DNA of 64,000 bases from Maribacter sp. ACAM166 (lineage in GTDB: Bacteria > Bacteroidota > Bacteroidia > Flavobacteriales > Flavobacteriaceae), in assembly GCF_005771495.1 (NCBI RefSeq), contig NZ_VAUW01000022.1, positions 1-64,000 on the forward strand. Direction: 5' to 3'. The notes beneath the pieces are model-generated. The model worked only from the letters and a program-made list of their open reading frames with translations, was not told where the DNA came from and did no database searches. Positions 55,545 through 64,000 of this stretch are shown here, in pieces (the stretch's first letter is position 1; each line of letters starts with the position of its first letter). A program made the position numbers and the translations under genes.

Positions 55545-56552
55545 ATGGCTAGTAATACATTTGTTTGTATTGATGCCCATACGTGTGGCAATCCCGTAAG
55601 GGTCATTAAACAAGGCGGTCCTGATTTAATAGGAGCGACCATGAGCGAGAAGCGACAACATTTCTTAAAAGAATACGATTGGATACGTAAAGGATTGATG
55701 TTTGAGCCTCGTGGGCATGATATGATGAGTGGTGGCATATTCTATCCACCAAGTAATTCTGATAATGATTTTGGTATTTTATTTATAGAAACCAGTGGTT
55801 GTCTACCGATGTGTGGGCACGGAACAATTGGTGCAATTACAATTGGTATTGAAGAGGGATTGATTGTTCCGAAATTTCCAGGTGAAGTACGGATGGAAAC
55901 ACCTGCAGGCTTGGTGAAAATCACCTACCAGCAAACCGGTAGTAAAGTTGACTGGGTGAAATTAACGAATGTAAAGTCATATTTAACGGCAACCGATTTG
56001 ACCATAGTGTCATCAGATTTAGGTGAATTGACTTTTGATGTTTCCTATGGAGGAAATTTTTATGCTATAGTAGATCCTCAAGATAATTTTTCAGGAATAC
56101 AAGATTTTTCTGCTAGTAAATTGATTCAATTCAGTCAAGAAATTAGGGAGAAAATCAATGAGAAATTTCCAGATGTATTTATCCATCCAGAAGATTCATC
56201 TATTAGAAATGTAAGTCATATGTTATGGACAGGTAAAACAATATCTGATACTGCAACAGCAAGAAATGCTGTGTTTTATGGCGATAAGGCAATTGATCGG
56301 TCACCATGTGGTACAGGTACCTCAGCGCGAATGGCACAATGGCACGCAAAGGGAAAGTTGAATTTAGGGGAAGATTTTATACATGAGAGTTTTATAGGTT
56401 CTCAATTTATAGGTCGTGTTGAAGCGGAAACTACGTTGGCAGGCAAACCAGCTATCATTCCGAGTATTAAAGGATGGGCGAAAATTTACGGTCAAAATAC
56501 GATAACGATTGATGATGATGATCCTTATGCTTATGGCTTTCAAGTAATTTAA
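55545..56552 (+). CDS. 4-hydroxyproline 2-epimerase (proline racemase family)
   Basis: This enzyme converts trans-4-hydroxy-L-proline to cis-4-hydroxy-D-proline. Both catalytic cysteines are present, in GCLPMCGHGTIGA and IDRSPCGTGTSARMAQ, and DAHTCGNPVRV opens the protein. Two cysteines point to an epimerase or racemase rather than the Cys/Thr dehydratase branch. The length of 335 residues is normal. Together with the downstream oxidase and upstream deaminase it fixes the pathway. Proline racemase is the main alternative, but the operon context favours hydroxyproline. Confidence 0.93.
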   Translation: MASNTFVCIDAHTCGNPVRVIKQGGPDLIGATMSEKRQHFLKEYDWIRKGLMFEPRGHDMMSGGIFYPPSNSDNDFGILFIETSGCLPMCGHGTIGAITIGIEEGLIVPKFPGEVRMETPAGLVKITYQQTGSKVDWVKLTNVKSYLTATDLTIVSSDLGELTFDVSYGGNFYAIVDPQDNFSGIQDFSASKLIQFSQEIREKINEKFPDVFIHPEDSSIRNVSHMLWTGKTISDTATARNAVFYGDKAIDRSPCGTGTSARMAQWHAKGKLNLGEDFIHESFIGSQFIGRVEAETTLAGKPAIIPSIKGWAKIYGQNTITIDDDDPYAYGFQVI

Positions 56553-56563
56553 ATAATTAACCA

Positions 56564-57754
56564 ATGAAAAAATATAGTTTATATTATGTTTTGCTGTTAA
56601 TAGCAGTTGTAAGCTGTCAAGAAAAAAAAGTAAACCCTGAAAAACCTGTTCCCCTATTAGATAAAGTTTCGACCCAATACGAGCATTTATATCGTAATGC
56701 CATAAAATATGTGGACTCTGATACGCCTATGCCTAGAACCATTGTTGACGGCAAGTTACATAGGGTTGGCAGGTATGATTGGACTAGCGGATTTCACCCA
56801 GGATCCATGTGGAATTTGTACGGACTAACAAAAAATGAGGAATGGAGGGATAGAGCCCTATACTACACCAAACTTTTGGATACTTTACAATATTGGGAAG
56901 GTACCCAGGACCTTGGTTTTATGATTGGGGATAGTTATGGCAATGCGTTAAAGTATATGGATAATAAGGCTTATGAGAAAGTTATGGTTCAAGCTGCTAA
57001 ATCGCTTTCCTCTCGATTTAAACCAAAGGCAGGAATCATACAGTCATGGGAATCTAACGACCGTTGGCAGTGCCCTGTAATTATTGATAATATGATGAAC
57101 TTAGAAATGTTATTCGAGGCAACTAAAATTTCTGGAGATTCTACTTTTTACACTATTGCCGTTACGCATGCAGATATGACGATGGACAATCATTATAGAA
57201 AAGATTTTAGCTCATACCATGTGTTAGACTATGATACCGAAACAGGAGAAGTTTTAAAGCGGAATACCGCACAGGGGTATAAAGATGAGTCAGCGTGGGC
57301 TAGGGGGCAAGCTTGGGGTTTGTATGGTTATATCGTGATGTTTAGAGAAACTAGGGATTTGAAATATTTGAATCAAGCAAAAAATATAGCAGGGTTCATT
57401 ATGAACCACACAAATCTACCTGAAAATAAAGTACCATATTGGGATTTTAATGCACCTGTTACAAAACTAACACCACGTGACGCATCTGCAGCGGCAATAA
57501 CGGCATCGGCACTTTATGAACTCAGTACTTTTGTTGACGGTGATTTGAATTCAGTATATAAAAATGAGGCAAATACAATAGTCGAAACGTTGAGTAAGGA
57601 GCCTTATTTGGCTGAATTAGGAACGAACGAAGGGTTTCTTTTAAAACATTCTACAGGTCATCTTCCTAAAGATTCTGAAATAGATGTACCCTTAAACTAT
57701 GCAGATTATTACTTTTTAGAAGCCTTAATTCGTAAACGTGATATGATTAAGTAA
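56564..57754 (+). CDS. Lipoprotein unsaturated glucuronyl hydrolase (GH88-like)
   Basis: A lipobox (VVSCQ) anchors the protein. The (alpha/alpha)6 barrel of GH88 is indicated by YDWTSGFHPGSMWNLYGL, QDLGFMIGDSYGNAL, IIDNMMNLEMLFEATK (with the catalytic-type Asp), DESAWARGQAWGLYGYIV and DASAAAITASALYEL. GH88 enzymes remove the unsaturated uronic acid left by polysaccharide lyases on glycosaminoglycan or plant/algal fragments. Its place inside a hydroxyproline operon, 11 bases after the epimerase gene, is unusual. It implies a substrate that combines uronate sugars and hydroxyproline. The 396-residue length is typical. Confidence 0.88.
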   Translation: MKKYSLYYVLLLIAVVSCQEKKVNPEKPVPLLDKVSTQYEHLYRNAIKYVDSDTPMPRTIVDGKLHRVGRYDWTSGFHPGSMWNLYGLTKNEEWRDRALYYTKLLDTLQYWEGTQDLGFMIGDSYGNALKYMDNKAYEKVMVQAAKSLSSRFKPKAGIIQSWESNDRWQCPVIIDNMMNLEMLFEATKISGDSTFYTIAVTHADMTMDNHYRKDFSSYHVLDYDTETGEVLKRNTAQGYKDESAWARGQAWGLYGYIVMFRETRDLKYLNQAKNIAGFIMNHTNLPENKVPYWDFNAPVTKLTPRDASAAAITASALYELSTFVDGDLNSVYKNEANTIVETLSKEPYLAELGTNEGFLLKHSTGHLPKDSEIDVPLNYADYYFLEALIRKRDMIK

Positions 57755-57762
57755 AAATTAGA

Positions 57763-59013
57763 ATGGCGAAAAATATTATAATTATTGGTGGTGGTTTTGT
57801 AGGGTTGTGTTCTGCTTATTATTTAAATAAGGCTGGTCATCAAGTCACCGTTATTGATAAAGGGGATATTACCTCTGGAGCTTCATTTGTGAATGCAGGG
57901 TATATAACTCCTAGTCATATTATACCATTAGCTTCACCAGGTATGATTGCTCAAGGTATAAAAATGATGTTTAATTCCGCTAGCCCGTTTTATATCAAAC
58001 CAAGACTGGATATCGATTTTCTTAAATGGTCATGGTATTTCCATAAATCATCGACCAAAGCCAAAGTGGAGAAAGCAATACCGGTTATTAAAGAGATTAA
58101 TCTAATCAGTAGGGACCTTTTTTTAGATATTAAAAACTCGGGTGATCTTGGAGATTTTCAACTTGAACGTAAAGGACTTCTGATGATGTATAAAACAGAA
58201 GCCAGTTACCTGCATGAGAAGCATGTCGCTGAGCGGGTTAGTTTTCTTGGTCTTGAAGTTTCAGATTTGAATAAAGAAGAATTGAGAAAGTTGGAACCGA
58301 ATATAAACATAGAGGCCGAAGGTGCTATTCACTATGAATGTGATGGTCATACGACGCCAACGGAAATTATGCCCAAGATGTTGAATTATCTTAAAAGCAA
58401 GGGTGTTGGTATACGAACCAATGAAGAAGTAGTTGATATTACAACCAATAGTGACAAAATTAGGCAGGTAGTTACCGATTCCAATTCCTATGAGCCAGAC
58501 GAGGTAGTTTTGGCTGCGGGTTCTTGGAGTGGGGAACTCTCTAAAAAATTAAACTTAAAACTATCGCTTCAAGGAGGTAAAGGCTATAGGATTAATGTAG
58601 AACGTGAAACAGGAATTTCAATTCCTGCAATATTAATGGAAGCAAAAATGGCAGTTACTCCCATGAAAGGTTTTACCAGGTTTGCGGGTACAATGGAGTT
58701 TTCAGGAAACAATGATATTGTTAGAAAAGAACGGGTTTTGGCTATAGCCAATGGAGCCAAATTGTTTTATCCAGAATTGGAAATTAACAATAAAGAGATT
58801 GATAGTGCTAAAACCGGTCTACGACCAGTGTCACCAGATGGTCTGCCATATATAGGTAGGTCTAGAAGCATTAAGAATCTTACAATTGCCACAGGTCACG
58901 CCATGATGGGGTGGAGTCTAGGTCCTGCAACCGGAAAGTTGGTTTCTGAGGTTTTAGATGGTAAAAAGACGTGTATGGATATTAGTGTATTTTCTCCTGA
59001 AAGAATTTTTTAA
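57763..59013 (+). CDS. D-amino acid dehydrogenase-like FAD oxidoreductase, probable D-hydroxyproline oxidase
   Basis: The N-terminal IIGGGFVGLCSAYYLNKAGHQVTVIDKG is the FAD motif of the DadA/DAO family. Further family blocks are FVNAGYITPSHIIPLASPG, KTGLRPVSPDGLPYIGR and TGHAMMGWSLGPATGKLVSE. In this operon it would oxidise cis-4-hydroxy-D-proline to 1-pyrroline-4-hydroxy-2-carboxylate. At 416 residues it matches single-subunit DadA-like enzymes, passing electrons to the quinone pool. It is the last gene of the operon, eight bases after the GH88 gene. Confidence 0.9.
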   Translation: MAKNIIIIGGGFVGLCSAYYLNKAGHQVTVIDKGDITSGASFVNAGYITPSHIIPLASPGMIAQGIKMMFNSASPFYIKPRLDIDFLKWSWYFHKSSTKAKVEKAIPVIKEINLISRDLFLDIKNSGDLGDFQLERKGLLMMYKTEASYLHEKHVAERVSFLGLEVSDLNKEELRKLEPNINIEAEGAIHYECDGHTTPTEIMPKMLNYLKSKGVGIRTNEEVVDITTNSDKIRQVVTDSNSYEPDEVVLAAGSWSGELSKKLNLKLSLQGGKGYRINVERETGISIPAILMEAKMAVTPMKGFTRFAGTMEFSGNNDIVRKERVLAIANGAKLFYPELEINNKEIDSAKTGLRPVSPDGLPYIGRSRSIKNLTIATGHAMMGWSLGPATGKLVSEVLDGKKTCMDISVFSPERIF

Positions 59014-59099
59014 AGTTCTAGATTTAAATTTATAGTTATTAGATTGCCACTCATCTACATCTATTGCACGCAACTAACGTAATTTTAAATACTTATTCT

Positions 59100-59501
59100 A
59101 TGGTTATTTTATTAATTGAAGATGATTTAATCGAAGTAATGAAGTTGAAACGTACTGTTTCAAAACTGAATTTAAAGCATACTATAATTGAAGCAAAAAA
59201 TGGAGAAGAAGCTTTAGTTTATTTAAATTCAAGTCAAAATCTACCAGACATTATATTGTTAGATTTGAATATGCCTAGAATGAATGGAATCGAATTTTTA
59301 ACTATTTTAAAGAAAGATGAGTTTTTACAGTATCTACCAACTATTATTTTAACCACTTCAGAAAATAGGACCGATTTATTAAAATGTTATCAAACAGGTA
59401 TTGCAGGTTATGTGATAAAACCCTTGAAATATGAAGATTACGAATATAAATTAAAAGCGGTTTTGGAGTATTGGAATGTGAATCAACTGGTTAAAGGCTA
59501 A
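59100..59501 (+). CDS. Single-domain response regulator
   Basis: The receiver domain alone makes up this protein, starting at ATG 59100 (MVILLIEDDLIEVMKLKR). The acidic pair is in IEDD and the phosphoacceptor Asp in DIILLDLNMPRMNG. The conserved Thr/Ser region is TIILTTSENRTDLL, and the Lys is in GYVIKPLKY. There is no output domain, so it works as a phosphate sink or a protein-binding switch, as CheY and Rcp1-type regulators do. It lies 74 bases before the H-NOX gene and probably belongs to the same signalling unit. Confidence 0.9.
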   Translation: MVILLIEDDLIEVMKLKRTVSKLNLKHTIIEAKNGEEALVYLNSSQNLPDIILLDLNMPRMNGIEFLTILKKDEFLQYLPTIILTTSENRTDLLKCYQTGIAGYVIKPLKYEDYEYKLKAVLEYWNVNQLVKG

Positions 59502-59541
59502 AAAAAAGCCCATTTTACAACATTTTTAGTAATAAAATTCC

Positions 59542-59573
59542 TACATTTGATATATTATAATGTTTAATATATC
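59542..59573 (+). promoter_or_regulatory. Promoter element and inverted repeat upstream of the H-NOX gene
   Basis: TACATTTG (59542-59549) fits TAnnTTTG. It runs directly into the perfect inverted repeat GATATATTA-N7-TAATATATC (59549-59573), which ends two bases before the start codon at 59576. It may be an operator or a leader hairpin that controls translation. Confidence 0.5.
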
Positions 59574-59575
59574 AA

Positions 59576-60118
59576 ATGAAGGGTATTGTATTTACGGAGT
59601 TTTTGGAAATGGTGGAGACCAAATTTGGTCTCGAAACTGTTGACAATATTATTGAAAAATCTAATTTACCCTCTCAAGGAATCTATACATCGGTCGCTAC
59701 TTATGAGTTTAATGAAATGGTTGCACTGATAACACAGCTCAGTGAAGAAGTGGATTTACCAGCTGGCGATTTAAAGTATGCCTTCGGACTTTATTTGTTT
59801 TCAAGTTTACGCAATGCACATCCCGAAGTAATACAGTGTTATAAAACTCCTATTAGCTTATTGTGTTCTATTGAAGATCATATACATGTTCATGTGAAAA
59901 AATTGTATCCAGATGCCGAGCTGCCTACTTTTAAAATACTTGATAAAACCGATACTTCCTTAACAATGATATATTCATCCTCAAGAGGACTATACCGAAT
60001 GGCTCATGGTCTTATTGAAAAGGTTTTTGAGCACTTTAATGGAAAGGCCGATATTACCTATGAACTTTTCAAGGAAGACGGTACAGAAGTGAAATTTGAT
60101 ATCGTTCAAAATGGATAA
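59576..60118 (+). CDS. H-NOX haem nitric oxide/oxygen sensor
   Basis: The 180-residue stand-alone H-NOX domain keeps the proximal haem ligand region IEDHIHVHVKKLYPDAELPTF-type sequence, with His104 as likely ligand. It also keeps the haem-propionate motif Y133-x-S-x-R137 in MIYSSSRGLYRMAHGLI. A distal-pocket Tyr needed for O2 binding is not obvious, so it should favour NO. H-NOX proteins usually inhibit a partner histidine kinase when NO binds. The next gene, which overlaps by eight bases, is such a kinase. Length and motifs are standard. Confidence 0.95.
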   Translation: MKGIVFTEFLEMVETKFGLETVDNIIEKSNLPSQGIYTSVATYEFNEMVALITQLSEEVDLPAGDLKYAFGLYLFSSLRNAHPEVIQCYKTPISLLCSIEDHIHVHVKKLYPDAELPTFKILDKTDTSLTMIYSSSRGLYRMAHGLIEKVFEHFNGKADITYELFKEDGTEVKFDIVQNG

Positions 60119-62477
60119 TAAAGAAGTTATTCTTCTGAAAAAATCCCTCTTAAGAGAGAAAAAGGCACGTCATCAAGCTGAGAGAATTTTAGAAGACAAA
60201 TCAAAGGAGCTCTATGACGTAAACCATCATTTAGAGGAAACTAATGGAAAGCTAGAAAAACTCCTGATTGAAAAGACATCAGAATTGGCTGGGGTATTTA
60301 TAAACATTGTAGATTCTTACATTGTAATGGATCTTGATTTTAATGTTATTAATATGAATAGCTCTGCAAAAGAGTTTTTAGGGTTTGATCATACTATTAA
60401 AAAGGTAAATCTTTCTCATTTTGTTCACCCCGATTTTTTTCTATACACCCAAAAATCGATGCGTTCACTAATGGAAGTTGGAACCCTCCAAAATTATCAA
60501 GCTAAAATTATTTTAAATGGTACTACTGAAAAATGGGTTCAAATAAATAGTAGTCTTATTTATGGAAAAAATGGGAAGCCAATAGCAGCCCAAGGTATAA
60601 TTAGAGATATTACTCAGGAGACGGAAGTGAAAAGACTGCTTTCTGAACAGAAAAAGCAATTAGATATTATTGTAGAGAATTCTCCATTAGGTATTGTTCT
60701 CTCCTTAGATGGCATCATAGTTAAGGCCAACGCTGCAATTGTAGATATGCTTGGGCATACCGAAAATGAACTTAAAAACAGTTCGCTTAAAGCCATTTCA
60801 GAACCAGAGAATCCTAACGACGAAAATTGTCTAATGGATCAGATGTATAATGGTGAAGTAGATAAATTTACGACCATATTGAAGTTCACTAAAAAGAACG
60901 GTTCAAAGATTTTGGTGAAGACTATGATGACTGCAATTACAGATAGTGTAGGCAAAAAAGATTATCAAATAGCAGTAATCGAGGATATATCCAAAGAGTT
61001 GGAAGCAGATAGAAAATTAAAATCATCTGAAAATAGGTTGTCGACATTAATATCTAATATGCAGACCGGTGTGCTGTTGGAGAATGAATACGGTAAAATA
61101 GCATGGACAAATCAAATGTTCTGTAACCTTTTTAATAGAACAGCAACTCCAGAAGCGTATATAGGTGAAGATTGTAGTGCCTCTGAAGAAGAATTTAAAA
61201 CATATTTTAAGAAACCAGAAAACTTCGTAAAACGAATAGAAGAAGTACTTGCAAAAAGAAAAACGGTATTATCAGATGAACTTGAAATGATCGATGGTAG
61301 AATTCTGGAACGAGATTTTATCCCTATAGATAATGATGGAACCTATAAAGGGCACTTATGGGTATACCATGATGTTACCATAAGTAAGAATTATAGAAAG
61401 AATTTGGAGGTCCAGAGAGAAAAGTATAGTAGCATAATAGCGAATATGAACCTTGGTTTAATAGAAGTAGACAATGATGAAGTCATACAAATGGTGAACC
61501 ATCGTTTTTGTGAAATGAGTGGATACAATGAAGAGGAGCTATTGGGTAAAATAGCTTCTGATATCCTCCTATTTAAGCGTAGTCAAGTAAATCAAGAGAA
61601 AATCAAAAAAAGATTAAAAGTGGAATCTACTTCTTATGAAGTAGAACTATTAGACAAAGATAAAAACATAAAACATTGGCTCATTAGTGAGGCTCCAAGA
61701 TCTAATGATTCGGGATCGGTAATTGGAGCTATAGGGATACATTTAGATATAACCGACCAAAAACATCTTGAACTACAAAAAGAAAAGTTAATGACTGAGT
61801 TGGAGGACAGTAATCAAGGTCTACAAGACTATGCACATATTGTTTCTCATGACCTCAAGTCTCCATTACGCAGCATTAGCGCACTCGCCACTTGGTTAAA
61901 TGAAGATTACAAAGATGTTTTAGATGAAGGAGGAAAGCAGAATTTGGAGCTGTTGCAGGAAAAAGTGGCTTCAATGGATAAATTGATAAATGGTATATTA
62001 GAATACTCAACAGCGAATAGTTCTGAGCTAGATAATTCTAATGTAGATCTCAATAAAGTAGTTGCAGAAATTGGTGAAATAATTTATATACCAGGGCATG
62101 TGAAATTGATAGTGCCTCAAAATCTACCGACTATTATTGCAGATAGAACAAAGATGCATCAACTGTTTCAAAATATTATTAGCAATGCCGTGGTACATAT
62201 AAAAAATAAAGAAGGGGTCGTTGAAGTACGTTATAAAGAAGAAGTTGATTTTTGGTGCTTTACGATAATTGACAATGGTGTAGGTATCCCTGAAAAATAT
62301 CATAAAAAGATTTTCGATATATTTCAATCTATTGGGCAGAATGAGGAATCATCGGGTATTGGTCTTTCTATAGTCAAAAAAATTGTTGATCGTTACGGTG
62401 GTCGGGTATGGATAGATAGTGTAGTTGGAGAAGGAACACAGTTCCATTTTACGATTACTAAAAATAAATGCTGCTAA
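60111..62477 (+). CDS. Soluble multi-PAS histidine kinase (H-NOX partner)
   Basis: ATG 60111 is the likely start. A coiled coil (residues 1-55) precedes four PAS-like domains at about 58-175, 185-305, 308-430 and 436-565. The HisKA box DYAHIVSHDLKSPLRS, with the phosphoacceptor at about His580, comes next. The HATPase has NIISNAVVHI, DNGVGIP and SSGIGLSIVKKIV. There is no membrane helix or receiver domain, so it is a cytosolic kinase dependent on partner sensors. It overlaps the H-NOX gene and precedes a FIST-domain gene by nine bases. The upstream single-domain regulator is its probable target. Confidence 0.92.
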   Translation: MDNKEVILLKKSLLREKKARHQAERILEDKSKELYDVNHHLEETNGKLEKLLIEKTSELAGVFINIVDSYIVMDLDFNVINMNSSAKEFLGFDHTIKKVNLSHFVHPDFFLYTQKSMRSLMEVGTLQNYQAKIILNGTTEKWVQINSSLIYGKNGKPIAAQGIIRDITQETEVKRLLSEQKKQLDIIVENSPLGIVLSLDGIIVKANAAIVDMLGHTENELKNSSLKAISEPENPNDENCLMDQMYNGEVDKFTTILKFTKKNGSKILVKTMMTAITDSVGKKDYQIAVIEDISKELEADRKLKSSENRLSTLISNMQTGVLLENEYGKIAWTNQMFCNLFNRTATPEAYIGEDCSASEEEFKTYFKKPENFVKRIEEVLAKRKTVLSDELEMIDGRILERDFIPIDNDGTYKGHLWVYHDVTISKNYRKNLEVQREKYSSIIANMNLGLIEVDNDEVIQMVNHRFCEMSGYNEEELLGKIASDILLFKRSQVNQEKIKKRLKVESTSYEVELLDKDKNIKHWLISEAPRSNDSGSVIGAIGIHLDITDQKHLELQKEKLMTELEDSNQGLQDYAHIVSHDLKSPLRSISALATWLNEDYKDVLDEGGKQNLELLQEKVASMDKLINGILEYSTANSSELDNSNVDLNKVVAEIGEIIYIPGHVKLIVPQNLPTIIADRTKMHQLFQNIISNAVVHIKNKEGVVEVRYKEEVDFWCFTIIDNGVGIPEKYHKKIFDIFQSIGQNEESSGIGLSIVKKIVDRYGGRVWIDSVVGEGTQFHFTITKNKCC

Positions 62478-62486
62478 AACTAACCA

Positions 62487-63617
62487 ATGAAAATAGTGCA
62501 GGCAATTAAAAAACCGAATGAACCCTTTATTTTTCAGGACACGTTAATTCAACTTAACAATCCATTGGTATTGGTATTCGGAAATCGTTATATGTTGGAA
62601 AGTGAGTATATCTATAATGAGGTTAGGGAATTATTTCCTACTGGCCAGATTGTTTTTGGTACGACCTCTGGTGAGATTATTAACGACACGGTTTTGGAGG
62701 GTACTGCTGTTTTAACCGCTATTGAATTTGAAAAAAGCTCAATTCTAGTAAAAAGGAGTAATGTTGAGGATTATCAGAATGATGATCAAAAGCTAGGGGA
62801 GGAATTAATGGCAGCATTTCCAAAAGAGAATTTAAATCATGTATTTGTAATTTCAGAAGGAAGTTCTGTTAATGGTAGTGCATTGATTAGTGGTTTGGAA
62901 AAGATATCAACAACGATAGGTTTGTCGGGCGGTCTATGTGGTGATGGTGATCGTTTTGAGCGAACCTTAGCTTCCTATAATGAAAACCCTAAAGAGGGTG
63001 AAATTATAGCGATTGGTTTTTATGGCGAAACGTTAGAAATATCGAGTTCTAATTACGGAGGATGGACACCCTTTGGTCCTGAAAGAAGTATAACTAAATC
63101 AATGGGTAATGTTTTGTATGAACTTGATGGTAAACCGGCTTTAGATCTTTATAAGACCTATTTAGGGGAGAAAGCTAAAGAGCTCCCAAAGTCAGCTTTG
63201 TTGTATCCATTAAGTATAAGGACACACCACGATACAGAGCCGTTAGTGCGTACTATATTAACTATTAATAATGATGAAAATACCATGACTTTTGCTGGAG
63301 ATGTTCCTGAAGGGGCAAAGGTTCAATTAATGATGTCTTCGGTAGATGATATTGTTAACGGCGCCTACAGAGCCGCACAACTGGCTATGAAAGGAAGAGA
63401 GAAAACACCTGAGCTTGCACTTTTAATAAGTTGTATCGGACGCAAATTAGTCATGGACCAAAGAACGGAAGAAGAGATAGAGGAAGTCCTATCAGTAGTG
63501 GGGAACAATACTGTAATTAGCGGTTTTTACTCTTACGGCGAAATGGCTCCATTTACCGGGCAATATTCCTGTAAACTACATAATCAAACAATGACCTTAA
63601 CCTTACTTAGCGAATAA
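62487..63617 (+). CDS. FIST-domain protein (NosP-like candidate NO sensor)
   Basis: The 376-residue protein shows FIST_N features (LVLVFGNRYMLE, FPTGQIVFGTTSGEI, GLSGGLCGDGDRFERTL) and FIST_C (VLYELDGKPALDLYKTYLG, FAGDVPEGAKVQLM, LLISCIGRKLVMDQRTEEEI). FIST proteins include NosP, a haem-based nitric oxide sensor that also regulates kinases. Its place right after an H-NOX/kinase pair makes an NO role attractive, but a haem ligand cannot be proven from sequence. Ligands could instead be amino acids. Its TAA overlaps the ATG of the next gene. Confidence 0.88.
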   Translation: MKIVQAIKKPNEPFIFQDTLIQLNNPLVLVFGNRYMLESEYIYNEVRELFPTGQIVFGTTSGEIINDTVLEGTAVLTAIEFEKSSILVKRSNVEDYQNDDQKLGEELMAAFPKENLNHVFVISEGSSVNGSALISGLEKISTTIGLSGGLCGDGDRFERTLASYNENPKEGEIIAIGFYGETLEISSSNYGGWTPFGPERSITKSMGNVLYELDGKPALDLYKTYLGEKAKELPKSALLYPLSIRTHHDTEPLVRTILTINNDENTMTFAGDVPEGAKVQLMMSSVDDIVNGAYRAAQLAMKGREKTPELALLISCIGRKLVMDQRTEEEIEEVLSVVGNNTVISGFYSYGEMAPFTGQYSCKLHNQTMTLTLLSE

Positions 63618-64000
63618 TGCATTCATTGTTAATTAGACAACTTAGAAAAAACCTAACAAAGCGCCTTGCATCACATCCAGAAATGGAAGCTTTTTTGAAG
63701 GCCATAGACATGTCATATCATGATTATGATGAAAGGTTGTCGATGCTATATAGGGCTACAACGATGAGCTCTGATGAGCTCTTTGAAGCCAATAAGAAGT
63801 TGGAGAAAGAGGCTGTTCAGCAAAAGAATATTTTAAGTTCCTTAGATAATGCCATTCGTAGTCTTACTGAGAATTTGAATGACAAAGAATTGTTTGGGCT
63901 AAATGTAAAAGATGAATTCAATACAGAATATTTGGCTAAATACATAAGTAATTTAGCAGATCAGGTAGCTGAAATGACTTCAGAGAAAGATAAACTTCTT
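63617..64000 (+). CDS. N-terminal part of a coiled-coil, probable histidine kinase (cut by window edge)
   Basis: The frame opens at ATG 63617 (overlapping the FIST stop as TAATG) and stays open for 128 codons to the window edge. It starts HSLLIRQLRKNLTKRL and contains helical segments with LYRATTMSSDELFEANKKLEKE. That HSLLxRQL plus SSxELxEANxxL wording is what I expect at the N-terminus of PAS/HisKA kinases and diguanylate cyclases that follow FIST genes. No catalytic domain is included in the window, so the kinase call is a context-based guess. Confidence 0.7.
   Translation, partial: MHSLLIRQLRKNLTKRLASHPEMEAFLKAIDMSYHDYDERLSMLYRATTMSSDELFEANKKLEKEAVQQKNILSSLDNAIRSLTENLNDKELFGLNVKDEFNTEYLAKYISNLADQVAEMTSEKDKLL

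Follow-up and report, generated by a model that had tools for sequence, protein, structure and literature searches.

In Vibrio parahaemolyticus, the H-NOX kinase phosphorylates LuxU (PMC8738867, PMC8846402), and the N-terminal stretch of Burkholderia pseudomallei NosK, about 130 residues, resembles no recognised sensor domain (PMC12570481), a layout shared by one of the kinases described here. A 2022 review lists FIST among the neighbours of 'group 1' H-NOX genes (PMC8738867); the section concerned names no taxa for the FIST cases and gives no kinase pairing, HPt, LytTR or promoter box. We analysed a stretch of 64,000 nucleotides from Maribacter sp. ACAM166 (positions 1 to 64,000 of contig NZ_VAUW01000022.1, hereafter the window) that holds most of a seven-gene signalling operon with both an H-NOX and a FIST gene and cuts off the rest. 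The operon is common in marine flavobacteria, and we consider it probable that it encodes a complete two-input phosphorelay whose output, through a LytTR regulator, would in relatives be matrix genes. A first-pass annotation of the window had proposed that a flavobacterial pair of these sensors may not have been described. That FIST is already noted near some H-NOX genes reduces this novelty, whereas no description of the combined H-NOX/FIST/HPt/LytTR operon in Flavobacteriaceae was found in the open-access literature, among the titles and abstract starts of the matches listed.

On the full contig (69,360 bases) the gene order is REC, H-NOX, HK1 (a histidine kinase with four PAS domains), FIST, HK2 (a second kinase), HPt and the LytTR regulator, with the following features.

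59046..59064, + strand: predicted LytTR-type box, single and degenerate, 13.5 bits with a matrix built from relatives, its start 54 bases ahead of the REC start codon (ATG)
59100..59501, + strand: single-domain receiver (REC), phospho-Asp D55, PF00072 74.1 bits
59576..60118, + strand: H-NOX haem protein, PF07700 135.7 bits against a cut-off of 25.5
60111..62477, + strand: HK1, a histidine kinase predicted to be cytoplasmic, with four PAS domains (PAS_9 stretches), HisKA and HATPase_c
62487..63617, + strand: FIST-FIST_C protein (NosP-like), PF08495 140.7 bits, PF10442 125.9 bits
63617..64000 in the window, + strand: HK2 kinase, 354 amino acids, continuing past the window to contig position 64681; a 130-residue N-terminal module, then the kinase core
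contig 64678-64998, past the window end: HPt-like protein, 106 amino acids, HPt fold in the model
contig 65000-65710, past the window end: LytTR regulator (REC plus LytTR), REC 66.5 bits, LytTR 72.6 bits

The H-NOX and HK1 genes overlap by 8 bases (60111-60118, with an ATG start) and the gap between HK1 and FIST is 9, which agrees with the first-pass annotation; the open reading frames (ORFs) and Pfam matches likewise bear out the receiver-only regulator, H-NOX, four-PAS kinase, FIST protein and start of a further kinase that it had placed at 59100..64000.

In the model that we favour, the H-NOX protein, a predicted nitric oxide (NO) sensor, would control HK1 and the FIST protein would control HK2. 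Both kinases would hand phosphate to the single-domain REC, from which it would pass to the HPt protein and on to the LytTR regulator. The regulator would bind direct repeats ACCATTCRTCKACASTWAA, 21 bases apart, ahead of its own operon and, in relatives, also ahead of a local polysaccharide-assembly cluster (flippase, GT1, REC-GT2), with a CAP lipoprotein and a DUF6923 protein secreted by the type IX secretion system (T9SS) as further putative targets. NO would thereby tune the extracellular matrix through transcription, and in relatives the relay may switch on outer-coat genes. The sequences themselves show the gene order, domains, conserved phospho-acceptors, HPt fold, shared kinase core, the linkage of FIST to the N-terminal module of HK2 (HK2N) and the distribution of the box; NO binding by either sensor, the sign of control, the path of phosphotransfer, box binding by the LytTR regulator and the matrix output are predicted.

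Profile searches for H-NOX and FIST in a main sample of 299 Flavobacteriaceae genomes found H-NOX in 105 (108 loci over the cut-off) and FIST in 87. Of the 87 genomes with FIST, 68 also have H-NOX; among the 212 that lack FIST the number is 37. In 58 of the 105 H-NOX genomes a FIST gene lay on the same strand within 3.2 kb of H-NOX (57 downstream, one upstream). The two belong to one operon and the order recurs across the family, so the possibility that it is unique to this strain fails. Most distances between the H-NOX and FIST starts are near 1.8, 2.2, 2.6 and 3.0 kb, steps that on our reading fit one to four PAS domains in the intervening kinase. Chance or passive co-location of the two genes would be compatible with the patchy presence of FIST (18 changes on the core tree described below), but the same-strand adjacency and stepped distances argue against it, and with the FIST-HK2N linkage they led us to reject this explanation, to which we assign a negligible probability.

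Among the 107 loci with an H-NOX ORF (L124, which lacks one, was dropped; L and G numbers are our labels for loci and genomes), 52 have all seven genes, 37 have REC-HNOX-HK-HPt-LytTR without FIST and HK2, four have FIST and HK2 with HPt and/or LytTR missing, and the remaining 14 are of other kinds, including contig ends. Since the five-gene core occurs without FIST and HK2, this pair looks like an optional second input to the core operon. Operons without LytTR were seen in Euzebyella and its kin (L068 in G172, L161, L165, L171 and L172). In a phylum-wide sample, H-NOX was found in 27 of 395 genomes; 20 of the H-NOX genomes were newly covered, with FIST in 14 and, in seven, FIST behind the H-NOX kinase, one of these (L226) belonging to another family. 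When named genomes were scanned with the alignment of FIST proteins, at least 559 candidates encoded relatives. The full operon was present in 68 of the best 80, which were selected by FIST similarity and are therefore not an unbiased sample; genera with the full operon include Maribacter, Zobellia, Cellulophaga, Arenibacter, Flagellimonas, Aquimarina and Flavobacterium, among others. On a tree of REC, H-NOX, HPt and LytTR from the 95 loci that have all four, FIST presence changes 18 times, compared with a mean of 29.3 and a minimum of 22 in 500 shuffles. We infer that FIST presence is old, with repeated loss, and in places it may have been gained by transfer.

The company that FIST keeps bears on which kinase it serves. 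Across 127 H-NOX loci, a downstream FIST gene and an HK2N-type kinase occur together in 60, FIST alone in four, the kinase alone in one and neither in 62, a class that includes L035, where FIST is upstream of H-NOX. The four FIST-only loci comprise two with a kinase bearing another N-terminus, one with a truncated kinase and one broken locus. At 20 FIST loci away from H-NOX (L245-L264), the next gene is an HK2N kinase fused to REC in 13, an HK2N kinase without REC in two and neither in five (one of the five is a contig end, and three of the rest hold divergent FISTs). HK2N was also detected (36.5 bits) in an Azospirillum plasmid kinase whose gene follows one for FIST. The first-pass annotation had both sensors acting on HK1, the kinase between them, and the tight gene order and conserved adjacency are what such an arrangement would give. 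This is quite improbable: the FIST-HK2N linkage holds in the 127 loci, an HK2N kinase follows FIST in 15 of the 20 loci away from H-NOX, and 37 of 107 loci are of the five-gene form, with HK1 and no FIST. We therefore rejected a single shared kinase; HK1 probably answers to H-NOX, and FIST comes with its own HK2.

Two other arrangements of FIST were observed. In L035 (G253) the FIST gene precedes H-NOX, with a hybrid kinase of 1156 amino acids following, and in seven loci (L247-L249, L254, L256, L257 and L259) a free-standing FIST and hybrid kinase precede a run of genes of similar sizes, which in L256 encode DUF2851, PspC, a TrkA-type channel and an alanine symporter.

The two kinases share a type of catalytic core. 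The H-box was found in 109 of 112 HK1 and all 63 HK2 proteins, and simple N box patterns match 89 and 51, respectively. The most hydrophobic stretch of HK1 (residues 198-216) falls at a PAS domain. In the window's own genome, HK1 is the closest of 43 other matches to the HK2 core (178.7 bits, 39% identity; next kinase, 113.6 bits), while the HK2 N-terminal module has no other match in that genome at E <= 1 and a profile search found no Pfam match N-terminal of the HK2 kinase core. When 201 kinase cores were placed in a midpoint-rooted tree, one clade (support 0.885) took in every one of the 63 HK2 cores from operons together with 113 of the 119 HK1 cores; the HK2 clade itself is weakly supported (0.41). 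Of the kinases from free-standing FIST loci, 13 of 16 fall in a separate clade (support 0.999) and two group with HK2. We thus read HK2 as a probable chimera, in which the N-terminal module of FIST-following kinases has been placed on an HK1-like catalytic core.

REC, HPt and the LytTR regulator have the residues expected of a relay. The acceptor Asp of REC (102 of 102), the acceptor His of HPt (His56; 95 of 95) and the acceptor Asp of the LytTR regulator (92 of 92) are invariant in the operon copies compared, which suggests that the three form a split His-Asp-His-Asp phosphorelay. The 106-residue HPt-like protein matches no Pfam family; its model is a helical bundle (predicted local distance difference test score, pLDDT, 93.6), and HPt domains are its top fold matches, the best being 3myf at TM 0.75 with a Foldseek E of 0.012; no match reaches E <= 0.001. 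The adjacency of REC to H-NOX and of HPt to HK2 would also suit two parallel pathways, H-NOX-HK1-REC and FIST-HK2-HPt-LytTR. We regard this division as unlikely, because HPt and LytTR are retained in 37 of 107 loci that have neither FIST nor HK2, and HK2 lacks the REC borne by most of its free-standing relatives; together these features point to a shared REC.

For the H-NOX protein, the residues in the haem pocket support a prediction of ligand type. His104, which we take to be the proximal haem ligand, is conserved in 105 of 107 loci, and the residues of the YxSxR motif are similarly maintained (Tyr133 and Ser135 in 106 of 107 each, Arg137 in 100 of 107). The motif is matched in 105 of 114 loci (the other nine have no match). 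At the fifth position after its Arg, which we take to be the distal-pocket Tyr site of O2-type H-NOX proteins, these 105 have Phe in 65, Leu in 33, Glu in four, Met in two and Asp in one, and none has Tyr. By the usual rules for this site, the absence of Tyr predicts that the operon H-NOX is of the NO type rather than O2-binding. The nearest solved chains are 6bde (6bde_A, 1.1e-60) and 6bdd, the latter being the H-NOX of Kordia algicida. A decaying copy of the operon was seen in L056 (G049), with a stop codon within H-NOX and a partial FIST match.

The FIST protein carries FIST and FIST_C domains in one stand-alone polypeptide next to a kinase, HK2, that has no recognised sensor domain. It is a candidate NosP-like sensor that may bind haem and NO. 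A sequence search for solved relatives gave a single chance match (uridylate kinase, E 0.09). With the structure model (pLDDT 91.6), the fold search was led by FBXO22 and 'Toblerone'-fold enzymes and had no haem protein in the best 50 of 567 matches; it therefore pointed to no ligand site. In L262, L263 and other genomes without H-NOX, two to four divergent FIST genes lie close together in arrays.

The putative output is marked by a shared promoter element. The same motif, CCATTCGTC, is enriched ahead of REC (53 of 108) and ahead of a DUF6923/T9SS gene (14 of 40), with block shuffles near 0, and is one base away from the box of the LytTR regulator AlgR, CCGTTCGTC (PMC4064291). Allowing up to five mismatches to the seed, 114 boxes lie ahead of REC in 82 of 108 loci, 113 of them on the operon strand. 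Two or more same-strand copies occur in 30 loci, spaced by 21 bases in 28 of 31 cases and 22 in three. A matrix scan of 1.75 Mb of fetched loci gave 300 hits, where shuffles gave 16. Of the 300, 150 precede REC, 38 DUF6923, 13 STAS, 8 REC-GT2 and 48 other genes, with a remainder of 43.

The box also tracks H-NOX across genomes. The exact word CCATTCGTCKACAC has 80 matches in the 299 genomes (reversed-word control, five) and is present in 45 of the 105 H-NOX genomes and five of the 194 others. Of these matches, 66 fall no more than 40 kb from H-NOX, and every one of the 66 is on the H-NOX strand: 40 are at most 1.1 kb upstream, 11 at 5-8 kb downstream, the range of the known DUF6923 promoters, and 15 at 10-31 kb downstream, nearly all of the last in newly examined sequence. 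In 20 box regions, mostly picked for holding a box, coding sequence makes up 87% of the total, yet 40 of the 43 boxes are intergenic; 29 of the 43 sit 64-105 bases before an ORF start. Behind boxes in one or more regions are genes for a flippase (Polysacc_synt_3), GT1, REC-GT2, a CAP lipoprotein, STAS, a DUF6923 protein with a T9SS tail and an OEP outer-membrane protein. In G172, where the H-NOX operon (L068) has no LytTR, a box-bearing REC-LytTR-DUF6923 cluster is found elsewhere in the genome (L338). Five of the box genomes lack H-NOX, and three of these five have an ortholog of the operon LytTR regulator (252-314 bits; other LytTR proteins score at most 179), against two of 30 box-less controls.

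Several results weigh against this model, some of them at the box. No box within five mismatches lies ahead of REC in 26 of 108 loci, some of which are explained by the ORF caller, which takes the earliest start codon and so cuts some upstream regions short. The matrix was trained on REC promoters; for 43 of its 300 hits no gene starts within 400 bases, and the 48 hits before other genes precede unclassified ones. The LytTR ortholog is absent from two of the five box genomes without H-NOX. The kinases and the FIST protein contribute further points. The phosphotransfer helices of HK1 and HK2 show no within-genome excess of covariation (z -1.1; the ATPase part does, z 4.7), and FIST follows the core genes less closely (Mantel 0.47) than HK2 does (0.84; HK1, 0.84; permutation maximum, 0.24). 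The single conserved His of FIST (137 of 139 operon copies) is equally present in loci without a called H-NOX (24 of 24, rows that include L144 twice and L167, L186, L194 and L217, which are contig-end or odd operon loci) and in distant FISTs (7 of 7), and therefore marks no haem class; an Azospirillum row of the alignment, which proved to be a regulator of similar length, was disregarded. Against the NCBIfam NosP equivalog NF041558, with a cut-off of 450, the FIST protein scores 67.3 bits and two further operon FISTs 57.3 and 62.0, and its designation as a certified NosP was rejected.

This low NosP score favours a variant in which the relay is as we propose, with H-NOX sensing NO and FIST another cue, such as haem or a metabolite. 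FIST-HK2N pairs also exist away from H-NOX, and Vibrio cholerae CdpA may detect haem through its FIST domains, according to a review (PMC8846402). On the other hand, a FIST protein has been shown to control an adjoining sensor-less kinase in an NO-dependent manner (PMC12570481), and the layout here is the same. We hold two different signals to be a serious possibility, somewhat short of an even chance.

For the window's own species, the output of the proposed relay is less clear than in relatives. In 12 Maribacter relatives the scores of the best box span 16.8-32.6 bits, with its start 73-94 bases ahead of the start codon; eight of the 12 have a second copy above 10 bits 21 bases away. To the points against the model must be added that the window's own box is single and degenerate, at 13.5 bits, that the exact word is absent from all three sampled genomes of the genus and that the GT1 target of a same-genus genome has no match in the own genome at 1e-20, in a search made without a positive control. 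Matrix output is thus supported for relatives and not for this strain. A looser form of the word has four matches in the own genome, including the promoter box (reversed control, one); two of the other three score under 10 bits and one 25.0 bits. The 25.0-bit box (L349, C92:2490) lies about 300 bases before a gene for a secreted ice-binding-like protein (PF11999).

The composition of HK2 leads us to a more tentative idea, that the operon maintains an open 'socket': a FIST-docking N-terminus on the resident H-NOX-kinase core would let a new sensor plug into the existing relay, an alternative HK2 N-terminus (two loci) or a third kinase would use the same socket, and surface matrix would be controlled through the LytTR box instead of cyclic di-GMP (c-di-GMP). 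In L039 and L071, HK2 has a different N-terminus where FIST scores low against PF08495 (72-74 bits), and sensor and docking module seem to change together. A third kinase stands between HK2 and HPt in the Flavobacterium-type operons L178, L186, L203, L230 and L231; the one in L203 has a GAF domain, and those in L186 and L230 begin with a hydrophobic stretch that looks membrane-like.

Ahead of the operon, at 55545-59013 of the window, are genes for a proline racemase-family protein, a 396-residue protein that matches no Pfam family and a DAO oxidoreductase. In several Maribacter loci the operon is preceded by equally sized genes, compared by length only. On the opposite strand, facing the operon end, are a Cache-domain kinase and a receiver gene (L002:8310-10519, contig C42). 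Such a Cache-type kinase and receiver pair was matched by label and size in 12 of 15 Maribacter loci (L145-L157, L159 and L224).

One operon of marine bacteria thus brings together two predicted sensors with their kinases, a full relay, a DNA-binding output and a candidate box. In our judgement this bears on the retention of two kinds of NO sensor in some bacteria: with everything in one operon, and with many named culture strains among the carriers in the matches listed, redundancy, range extension or signal integration becomes testable. If the model is true, Flavobacteriaceae would gain a route from NO to matrix genes without a c-di-GMP enzyme in the operon.

The closest described systems each share part of this design. 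As in the H-NOX/HnoK systems of Shewanella and Vibrio (HnoX-HnoK-HnoB; HqsK-LuxU in V. parahaemolyticus, LuxU being an HPt protein), a stand-alone H-NOX would act on a kinase; their outputs are c-di-GMP enzymes or quorum sensing, whereas the flavobacterial operon encodes separate REC, HPt and LytTR proteins with the sensor and has a FIST-kinase pair inserted. In the Bacillus Spo0 phosphorelay, several kinases (KinA-E) feed a single-domain receiver (Spo0F), a phosphotransferase (Spo0B) and a DNA-binding regulator (Spo0A). The same relay parts are present here, but the regulator is of an unrelated class, the parts lie in one operon and the sensors are separate proteins. The NosP-NahK/NosK systems of Pseudomonas, Legionella and Burkholderia also place a single FIST protein beside a kinase; the operon FIST differs in falling below the NosP cut-off, the HK2 core is of the H-NOX-kinase type and the output is LytTR, not HD-GYP or GGDEF/EAL. 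Both kinds of sensor are found in one organism in the H-NOX and NosP network of V. cholerae and in Legionella pneumophila, with Hnox1, Hnox2 and NosP (PMC8738867, PMC11237717). The three L. pneumophila sensors are in separate operons (PMC11237717), unlike the flavobacterial sensors, which are in one operon with one relay. Pseudomonas AlgR, a LytTR regulator with the box CCGTTCGTC, controls alginate genes (PMC4064291), whereas the flavobacterial box, CCATTCGTC, occurs as direct repeats 21 bases apart.

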